Assembly (NCBI GenBank): GCA_025929895.1
Contig: JAICPI010000003.1
Location: 1-64,000, forward strand
Source: Thermoleophilia bacterium
Lineage (GTDB): Bacteria; Actinomycetota; Thermoleophilia; Gaiellales; Gaiellaceae
Direction: 5' to 3'
Length of the DNA: 64,000 bases
A program made the position numbers and the translations under genes. Below are positions 13,312 to 15,133 of this stretch, in pieces (position 1 is the stretch's first letter; every line of letters begins with the position of its first letter). The notes under the pieces are model-generated. The model saw only the letters and a list, made by a program, of their open reading frames with translations. It ran no database searches and had not been told where the DNA came from.

Positions 13312-13413
13312 TTACCAGGCGCCGTCGGAGAAGCCGAGCCAGCCCAATGCGCCGAAGACGGACGACGCGCTGAGCGCTGCGAGTACTGCCAGGTGGGTGA
13401 GACGGAACTTCAT
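13312..13413 (-). CDS. Short exported-peptide ORF (33 aa) paired with the XRE-TPR regulator
   Basis: A 33-residue ORF with a perfect Shine-Dalgarno AGGAGGTGA upstream of ATG 13413, 27 bases after the stop of the XRE-TPR gene on the same strand. It begins MKFRLTHLAVLAALSA, a short basic N-terminus followed by a hydrophobic core, and ends GWLGFSDGAW. The layout (basic, hydrophobic, short polar/aromatic tail) is that of pro-peptides in Gram-positive RRNPP signalling, where the C-terminal residues become the signal. An alternative is a small single-span membrane protein. The in-frame GTG inside the Shine-Dalgarno could add five residues. Confidence 0.65.
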   Translation of the reverse strand: MKFRLTHLAVLAALSASSVFGALGWLGFSDGAW

Positions 13414-13440
13414 GTTGTCGCTGTTCACCTCCTCTCGTTC

Positions 13441-14787
13441 CTAGAAGCGGAAGTCCTGGAGCGCCTCTGCGGCGCGCCGGTATTGGTGTGCAGCTTCGCG
13501 ATCGTCACCCCGGCGCGCCGCGAGATCGCCGAGGGCGACCCACGCTGCGGCGCGGTGGCTGACGGACGAGAGCTGCTCGAACGACGAGTCGGCCGCGCGG
13601 AACTGCTCCCCCGCCTCTTCGAGGCGATCCTGCTCGAGCAGCGAGCGGCCGAGGACGAGCTGTGCGTTTCCGATCTCGTCGAGGAAGTCCACACGGCCCT
13701 CGAGCAGCCGAAGCGCGTGGCGCGACTGCTCCTCCGCCTGCTCGATCTTCCCCGTGCGCAGATGAACCTGCGCGAGCGAGGACACCGCCTGCGCGGCGTC
13801 GGCGTCGTTGCCGAGATCGAGGGCGATCCGGAACGCTTCCTTCAGGTGCGGGATCGCCTCCTCGGGCTTGCCGAGGAGGAACGCGAACCCCCCGATGTTG
13901 TTGTGCAGCCGGCCGACGTGGCGATCCTCGGCCAGTTCTTCGTAGATCGACTTCGCCTTCTCGGCGTACGTGCGCGCGAGCACCCAGTGCCCCTCGCGCT
14001 CGGCGACGATCGACGCCTGGAAGTAGGCGTTCGCGATCGACGGCGCGTCGTCGACGGCGCGCGCGAGCTCGAGCGCGCGCTCGACGTCCTCCTTCGCGGC
14101 CTGGAAGTCGCGCTGCCGGCGGTAGCAGCGGGAGCGCGCCTCGAGGATCTTCGAGCGGAGGAGATCCGACGGAAGCTCGGAGCGCTCCGCGAGCTCGAGC
14201 GCGGTGTTGAACAGCCCGAGCGCGCTCGCGACGCTCGAAAGCTTGTAGCGCGCGATCCCGAGCTCGAAGACGACCTCGGCGCGCTCGACGTCGGAGAAGC
14301 TCGGGCCCTCCGTCAGCGCGCGTGCGCGCTCGAGCAGCGGGACCGCCCGGGACACCTCACCCTCGATCGCGCGGGCGCGGGCCTCGCCGGTGAGGGCGCG
14401 CGCCTCGAGCTCGGCCGAGCCCGTCGCGAGCACGGCTCCGCGGAGCGCGTCGTACTCGGTGAGCGCCTCCTCGCAGCGGTCGGCGCGCGTGAGCGCCTCC
14501 GCCCTCGCGAGGCTGCCCTCGACGCGGCCGCGCTCGTCGGTCGAGACGCCGTTCGCGAGGAACGTCGCGTCGACGCGCAGGCGCTGCGCGAGCCACTCGA
14601 TCGTCTCGGCGGTCGGGCGCGTCTTGCCGCGCTCGATCTGGCTGACGTACTCCTTCGAGAACCGCTCGCCCGCGAGCTCGCCCTGCGTGAGCCCCGCGGC
14701 GACGCGCAGTTGGCGCAGGCGCTCGCCGAGGCCCAGTGCGGCGGGCTTCGTCAGGCGCTGCGGCTCGGTGCGGAGAGTGCGGGGCAT
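13441..14787 (-). CDS. XRE-family regulator with C-terminal TPR domain (RRNPP-like)
   Basis: A 448-residue DNA-binding protein. Residues about 20-75 form an XRE helix-turn-helix (GERLRQLRVAAGLTQGELAG, then YVSQIERGKTRPTAETI). Residues about 85-445 are a row of tetratricopeptide helices, for example ALTEYDALRGAVLATG and AIPHLKEAFRIALDLGNDA. HTH plus a long TPR superhelix is the architecture of PlcR, NprR and Rgg-like peptide receptors. The next gene downstream is a 33-residue exported-peptide ORF. The perfect palindrome 14798-14812 lies 11 bases upstream of the ATG and could be an autoregulatory site. The Shine-Dalgarno sequence is weak. Confidence 0.85.
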   Translation of the reverse strand: MPRTLRTEPQRLTKPAALGLGERLRQLRVAAGLTQGELAGERFSKEYVSQIERGKTRPTAETIEWLAQRLRVDATFLANGVSTDERGRVEGSLARAEALTRADRCEEALTEYDALRGAVLATGSAELEARALTGEARARAIEGEVSRAVPLLERARALTEGPSFSDVERAEVVFELGIARYKLSSVASALGLFNTALELAERSELPSDLLRSKILEARSRCYRRQRDFQAAKEDVERALELARAVDDAPSIANAYFQASIVAEREGHWVLARTYAEKAKSIYEELAEDRHVGRLHNNIGGFAFLLGKPEEAIPHLKEAFRIALDLGNDADAAQAVSSLAQVHLRTGKIEQAEEQSRHALRLLEGRVDFLDEIGNAQLVLGRSLLEQDRLEEAGEQFRAADSSFEQLSSVSHRAAAWVALGDLAARRGDDREAAHQYRRAAEALQDFRF

Positions 14788-14812: not shown

Positions 14813-14881
14813 ATACTTCACCAAAGTGCAAGCGGGCCGAATCCGGCATCCCCCGAAAGGGGCATGTCTCCAGGGAATTCG

Positions 14882-14925
14882 GGTCAACAAACCGGTTTCC
14901 AAATCACTTGACCGAGCTACTTGAC
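14882..14925. promoter_or_regulatory. Candidate operator cluster between the XRE gene and the ncRNA promoter
   Basis: GGTCAA (14882-14887) and TTGACC (14908-14913) form an inverted repeat around a palindromic AAACCGGTTT (14889-14898). A second CTTGAC (14920-14925) lies 13 bp from the first and overlaps the -35 box. This fits a dimeric regulator acting on the divergent promoter, most simply the XRE protein. Confidence 0.4.
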
Positions 14926-14949
14926 AAGGCCGGACACGGCTCGTACAGT
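14921..14949 (+). promoter_or_regulatory. Sigma70-type promoter TTGACA-17-TACAGT
   Basis: A consensus -35 TTGACA (14921-14926), a 17-base spacer and a -10 TACAGT (14944-14949), the best promoter match in the window. It points into the non-coding interval 14956-15133, not directly into a gene. Confidence 0.65.
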
Positions 14950-14955
14950 GAGCTT

Positions 14956-15133
14956 CACCTCGCCGTTCGATCGGACGCCAGGTCGAACGCAGGAGGCGCG
15001 CCAGGGCGACACAGATCCGGTGGGCGTGGCTGGGCCGCAGAGTCATGGCCACCGGGGAGTCGCCTCAGGTGGGTCAGGTGCAGACAAGGGAAACCCCCGG
15101 GGAGCCGCAGCCCGGGGGGTTTCTCTTGTTGGG
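14956..15133 (+). ncRNA. Candidate structured non-coding RNA or riboswitch-like leader
   Basis: The only gene-free stretch over 300 bases (14788-15189) holds a complete transcription unit: a consensus promoter, about 175 transcribed bases and an intrinsic terminator. A first hairpin pairs CGTTCGA with TCGAACG (about 14962-14989). A second, nested one pairs 15005-15010 with 15059-15064 (GGCGAC/GTCGCC) and 15017-15023 with 15049-15055 (CCGGTGG/CCACCGG). The block GTGGCTGG ... CCACCGGGGAG recalls the ZTP (pfl) riboswitch consensus from memory, but the 5' conserved part differs by at least one base. No convincing ORF is present, although AGGAGG occurs at 14991. Confidence 0.5.
15084..15129 (+). 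terminator. Intrinsic terminator hairpin
   Basis: A 15-bp stem (ACAAGGGAAACCCCC with GGGGGTTTCTCTTGT, one G-U pair) around a GC-rich loop. It ends the candidate ncRNA 60 bases before the next gene. Confidence 0.75.

Follow-up and report, generated by a model that had tools for sequence, protein, structure and literature searches.

A probable RRNPP-like peptide-signalling cassette with a likely small-RNA output in the chromosomes of Gaiellaceae

Receptor, pro-peptide and divergent RNA at the locus

The 64,000-nucleotide stretch of Gaiellaceae DNA analysed here (the window) carries a gene with an ATG start for an XRE-TPR receptor/regulator of 448 aa at positions 13441..14787 on the minus strand. 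Its N-terminal helix-turn-helix (HTH) region, at residues 20-79, is matched over residues 20-76 by the Pfam models HTH_31 (E 1.7e-12) and HTH_3 (4e-9), while TPR_12 (5.9e-30) spans the remainder, with about nine TPR repeats. AlphaFold2 models the receptor as a confident TPR superhelix (mean pLDDT 91.6). The protein falls below the cut-off of every NCBIfam model.

The adjoining pro-peptide gene (13312..13413, minus strand; 33 codons, MKFRLTHLAVLAALSASSVFGALGWLGFSDGAW) starts with an ATG 27 nt past the receptor stop codon. It encodes a basic start (MKFR), a hydrophobic segment and a C-terminal tail, whose codons (13315..13335, minus strand) read GFSDGAW, a putative signal with the family motif (G/S/T)-(F/M/L/W)-x-D-G-x. 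The ribosome-binding site, AGGAGGTGA, lies at 13425..13433 on the minus strand, and its AGGAGG ends 14 nt before the ATG, compared with about 7-8 nt in most relatives. The first-pass annotation had placed both ORFs, 27 nt apart, exactly to the base, and its description of a 448-aa protein with an N-terminal XRE HTH and a long TPR array is borne out by the Pfam matches. It had also called the ribosome-binding site perfect, which holds for the presence of AGGAGGTGA but not for its spacing, longer than usual. Receptor and pro-peptide are in the same reading frame here and in 24 other loci; in an AlphaFold model of the read-through receptor-peptide fusion, confidence in the tail is low to modest.

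On the other side of the receptor gene lies a divergent structured RNA gene of about 170 nt (14955..15128, plus strand), which the first-pass annotation had overlooked together with its promoter. The RNA contains three hairpins with the loops GGACGCCAG, GGGCCGCAG and AGCCGCAG, ends in an intrinsic terminator hairpin (15085..15128, plus strand) with the conserved loop GCCGCAGC, and folds with a z of -5.26. The -10 element of its promoter, TACAGT (14944..14949, plus strand), is located 18 nt past an ACTTGAC-N6-ACTTGAC direct repeat (14906..14925, plus strand). This repeat is a candidate operator seen across 63 promoters, and its second copy is the -35 element; the family form of the promoter is AAATCACTTGACcgAGcTACTTGAC-N18-TATAGT. 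A further half-site-like copy, ACTTCAC (14815..14821), sits just upstream of the receptor start, and 8-mers such as CACTTGAC, part of the RNA promoter, occur upstream of the receptor, on the opposite strand, in 69-72/89 loci. The intergenic region also holds an inverted repeat, CCCCCGAAAGGGG (14850..14862), which recurs between receptor and RNA in relatives (CCCCnAAAAGGGGCATG) and may be a second operator.

Conservation of the pair and of the RNA

Receptor orthologues share 43-68% identity overall and about 60-68% in most genomes of Gaiellaceae, the window's own family (f1), within which the receptor is near-universal. Homologues of about 45% identity are found in f2, a sister family within the order, and remote homologues in three genomes of another family, f7, with no pro-peptide alongside. 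Beyond f1, f2 and f7, almost no receptor match was found among 397 genomes across the phylum.

Nearly all receptors of f1 and f2 precede a small ORF that has a Shine-Dalgarno (SD) sequence, a basic start and a hydrophobic core. Under a fixed rule (a basic-hydrophobic ORF, 25-75 codons long, with an SD sequence in front of it and <=48 nt from the receptor), 87/107 family receptors are positive, and 73 of these 87 ORFs have [DSTNE]G followed by at most 6 residues at their end. The same rule picks out 0/27 outgroup XRE-TPR genes, 49/5350 shuffles and, within these loci, 1/561 other genes, this one (L136) being itself a fragment of the family. Of the 20 misses, several fall short only of a threshold, as does the window's own ORF because of its SD spacing; the receptor of L029 (genome G034) truly has no pro-peptide.

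Synonymous differences exceed nonsynonymous ones in close pro-peptide pairs, with pS/pN of 0.25/0.03 for L087/L091, 0.14/0.05 for L040/L041 and 0.37/0.13 for L033/L035, and of 0.51/0.29 pooled over 237 pairs. This pattern indicates purifying selection on the short ORF and, together with the outgroup, gene and shuffle controls, rules out a chance ORF. Both parts of what had been expected of a coding partner are seen: nearly all relatives keep the ORF beside the regulator, and its substitutions are synonymous-biased with no general loss of frame.

The C-terminal DG motif is conserved while the remainder of the pro-peptide diverges. In L021, L104, L109 and L116 the signal unit S(M/A)FDG(G/H/N) is repeated three to six times, in L023 the pro-peptide contains MHDGHG four times, and in L012 two pro-peptide genes follow one another, each ending GHFDGR. 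Such tandem units were absent from the first-pass description. Tails in f2 end GFHEW or GFHQW, and those of L004 and L030 are atypical. In genus g11 (L038, L178-L182) the receptors come with the same RNA and with longer pro-peptides, whose ends, GHGGGRMHY or GHGGGHMNW, form a third signal class.

Two further observations concern small ORFs of this region. The pro-peptide of L121 (G179) reads MKARLILHRSWTDGH; it has lost the hydrophobic core and kept the DG tail SWTDGH, which provides a natural means of telling export from intracellular action. In L006, L011, L013, L020, L022, L027 and L029, a second conserved small ORF of ~33-45 aa, M(E/D)xRPSLRPLAPxLxxLxAxWxxxxxxIxAQLx, comes after the pro-peptide position, about 50-230 nt past the receptor stop; its product is an unexplained small membrane protein.

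The divergent RNA is conserved at the level of structure. Across 51 RNA sequences, 276 paired cells are doubly changed versus 153 in shuffled alignments, and the covariation score is 0.236 versus 0.136 shuffled and <=0.113 for all slid versions, the structure having been derived from one member, which somewhat favours it in the sliding control. A covariance model detects the RNA in 72/299 genomes of the class, all of them Gaiellaceae and with one copy each, adjoining the receptor in nearly all. No Rfam 15 gathering score is reached (the best match, mir-25, has E 0.098 and 23 bits versus 40.5 required), and membership of an Rfam family is rejected. We propose that the divergent RNA represents a new structured RNA family restricted to Gaiellaceae.

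The RNA and the receptor do not always occur together. L234 (G184:C5:4076-4258) keeps the RNA gene in a genome, 97% complete, in which no receptor was found, and a second receptor clade (L033 type) has the pro-peptide but no divergent RNA. The RNA is thus not an obligate partner of the receptor. Upstream of the receptor in f2 (L039-L043) lies a divergent RNA-like region of different sequence. It contains several ACTTGACC sites, and its terminator hairpin is compensated.

The peptide may be a real signal and the RNA an independent gene that shares no more than the intergenic region, as its separate occurrence would allow and as would follow if the second repeat copy were just a -35 box. We consider this less likely than not, yet the strongest of the alternatives; several features speak against it. 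The ACTTGAC-6-ACTTGAC-18-TATAGT geometry (6/18 nt) is fixed in 52 loci, and the exact ACTTGAC pair occurs in the window's own genome at this promoter only, with two 2-mismatch places elsewhere. Additional copies of ACTT[CG]AC or its complement lie between promoter and receptor in 42/63 loci versus 1.5 expected. G034 retains the receptor and lacks both RNA and pro-peptide, and the f2 region would be an analogous, if different, divergent RNA. From position and conservation we guess that the receptor binds at ACTTGAC, the second copy doubling as the -35 box.

Divergence of the tail with the TPR concave face

The first-pass annotation had raised the question whether the last residues of the peptide covary with the TPR pocket. 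Their divergence follows the concave face more closely than it does the rest of the receptor. In partial Mantel comparisons, the tail correlates with the A helices, which line the concave face, given the B helices (0.49), and not with the B helices of the outer face given the A helices (-0.06). For the first 12 residues of the pro-peptide the value is only 0.10. The value for helix A, 0.653, compares with 0.476 for 300 random sets of other positions (sd 0.029, max 0.544).

The receptor sites most strongly linked to the tail fall in the TPR A helices 328-344 and 368-385. Tails that start with S/T pair with S/T375 and non-Q340, and those that start with G mostly with A375 and Q340. On the tree, tail position -3 changes 5 times and receptor site 375 changes 3 times, giving 4 independent pairs only. 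With so few independent changes, part of the Mantel signal may reflect shared ancestry, and we regard the correlation as supportive, not as proof, of an interaction between the tail and this face.

Several genomes also encode TPR paralogues without an HTH, another feature missed at first pass, whose own exported-type peptides end GF(S/Y)(S/T)Gx. The window's own genome has one such paralogue (L031; G000:C64:36007-37029; 52% identity), and no exported peptide was found alongside it, unlike most HTH-less paralogues in other genomes.

Comparison with known systems and proposed mechanism

RRNPP searches apply five criteria, including a pro-peptide secreted by the Sec pathway according to SignalP (PMC10075063). 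By those of RRNPP_detector, the cassette agrees outright in four: a pro-peptide of 33 aa (28-68 aa in relatives) lies within 10-100 aa, a receptor of 448 aa within 250-500 aa, TPRs are present in both the TPR_12 match and the AlphaFold2 superhelix, and the two genes are direct neighbours (27 nt; 87/107 by the fixed rule). For the fifth, Sec secretion, the features seen by rule are the basic start and hydrophobic core, with an AxA-like site in some members. Sequence matches of the receptor to RRNPP proteins are weak (RapF E 0.015, PlcR 0.027). Foldseek matches of the receptor model include RapI (TM 0.76 by target), RapJ:CSF, Rap-phi3T with pheromone, PlcR:PapR7 and NprR, which rank below the eukaryotic TPRs of LGN/Pins. 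That the cassette works like an RRNPP system is accordingly supported more firmly than that it is a member of the family.

The HTH-bearing RRNPP(A) receptors (PlcR-PapR, NprR-NprX, Rgg-SHP, PrgX) share with the cassette an N-terminal XRE HTH, a TPR superhelix within 250-500 aa and an adjacent small exported-type pro-peptide with a conserved C-terminal signal segment. The cassette differs in being actinobacterial (Gaiellaceae and the sister family), in its tandem-repeated units and divergent RNA, and in having no close sequence relation to these receptors. To our knowledge, its DG-motif signal matches no known RRNPP signal class.

The HTH-less paralogues recall the Rap-Phr systems of Bacillus, likewise HTH-less TPR proteins, with their own exported-type peptides (here with GF[SY][ST]Gx tails). 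They stand to the HTH-bearing receptors much as Raps do in Bacillus, and differ in being relatives of those receptors within one family. XRE-TPR regulators of Actinobacteria (AfsR/NsdA-like TPR and generic XRE-TPR proteins, about 30% identity) have the same domain types, but an exported peptide follows 0/27 such genes in the outgroup.

Arbitrium (AimR-AimP-AimX) is the closest three-part analogue because aimX yields a small non-coding RNA (PMC6458997). AimR has nine TPR-like motifs and binds the promoter region of that RNA (PMC6458997). TPR regulator, pro-peptide and small RNA are thus common to both, with control of the RNA only a candidate here. Unlike the phage-borne arbitrium of SPbeta, the Gaiellaceae cassette is chromosomal and syntenic and has no viral match, and its RNA is divergent, upstream of the receptor and conserved in structure across the family.

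These data point to an RRNPP-like peptide-signalling cassette that is chromosomal, passes down vertically and has a small-RNA output, a reading to which we assign a probability of about 0.72. The small ORF would give a pro-peptide that is exported via its N-terminal signal or membrane segment, and proteolysis would free its C-terminal end as a short peptide around (G/S/T)(F/M/L/W)xDGx. An oligopeptide permease would probably take the freed peptide back up. Opp-type binding proteins are present in many bacteria, and four are encoded in the window's own genome. Inside, the peptide would bind the TPR concave face of the regulator, whose gene directly precedes the pro-peptide gene within one operon, and binding would alter the action of the XRE domain at the intergenic ACTT(G/C)AC sites. 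The main output would most likely be the divergent ~170-nt structured RNA, in addition to the receptor's own operon. Export, processing, uptake and peptide binding are inferred steps, and so are receptor control of the RNA, the sign of that regulation and the targets of the RNA. The RRNPP-type reading of the gene pair made at first pass is supported by conservation of the pair, the synonymous bias and divergence of the tail with the concave face. The fuller proposal, a three-part chromosomal system of pro-peptide, XRE-TPR receptor and divergent small RNA as main output, vertical across Gaiellaceae and the sister family and with Rap-like HTH-less offshoots having a signal class of their own, we hold to be evenly balanced between right and wrong.

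The small ORF might instead encode a protein that stays in the membrane, its DG tail, cytoplasmic or external, directly tethering or inhibiting the regulator in the same cell, with no secreted signal. Many pro-peptides, with a single hydrophobic helix but lacking an AxA cleavage site, could remain anchored in this way; adjacency and coevolution with the TPR face would fit equally well. Processing and release, on the other hand, agree with the AxA-like site and following linker of several members and with the tandem repeats of the tail unit, and the DG tail persists in L121 after loss of the core. Membrane anchoring strikes us as distinctly improbable beside release of a signal peptide.

The genomic surroundings bear on two further readings. 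By tblastn with the window's neighbours, the locus is chromosomal and syntenic. Beyond the RNA lies a divergent gene for an AMP-binding acyl-CoA synthetase (48 loci), and on the other side are selD (44 loci), an SDR gene (37), an ABC1/AarF-like kinase gene (25) and a rhodanese gene (22). A scan of viral contigs returned no relative, and on this basis a viral origin is rejected. A small hydrophobic ORF next to an XRE gene is a common toxin-antitoxin layout, and the pair resembles it. A small hydrophobic toxin with its XRE regulator, or a similar addiction pair, is nonetheless very improbable in view of the stable synteny with the acyl-CoA synthetase and selD genes, the near-universal presence in one family, the lack of viral matches, the conserved and repeated DG tail and a receptor that is a 448-aa TPR protein. 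Least probable of all is a RiPP or bacteriocin precursor with its pathway regulator, which the small precursor, variable leader and repeated core bring to mind, since no modification enzyme or exporter was recognised among the recurrent neighbours tested, which are of housekeeping types, and the core is both minimal and constant.

Peptide signalling through the XRE-TPR receptor remains our preferred reading: a real and conserved cassette, probably new, with a likely small-RNA output. The RRNPP family has been called exclusive to Firmicutes (PMC6458997), and a large-scale search took in Firmicutes and viruses only (PMC10075063). The first-pass annotation had considered no such system to be established in this lineage; in agreement with this, we found no report of an RRNPP system in Actinobacteria in the open-access literature, a scope that leaves aside subscription journals and preprints.

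If our interpretation is correct, RRNPP-type signalling would here be seen for the first time beyond Firmicutes and their mobile elements, together with a new small-RNA family, and a case spanning an actinobacterial family would carry peptide quorum sensing into another phylum. The short signal would be predictable for each species and the signalling testable with synthetic peptides, and a receptor linked to a new structured small RNA would give a direct molecular readout. Gaiellaceae are common in soil and hard to culture, and a defined signal peptide might have practical use for these organisms.
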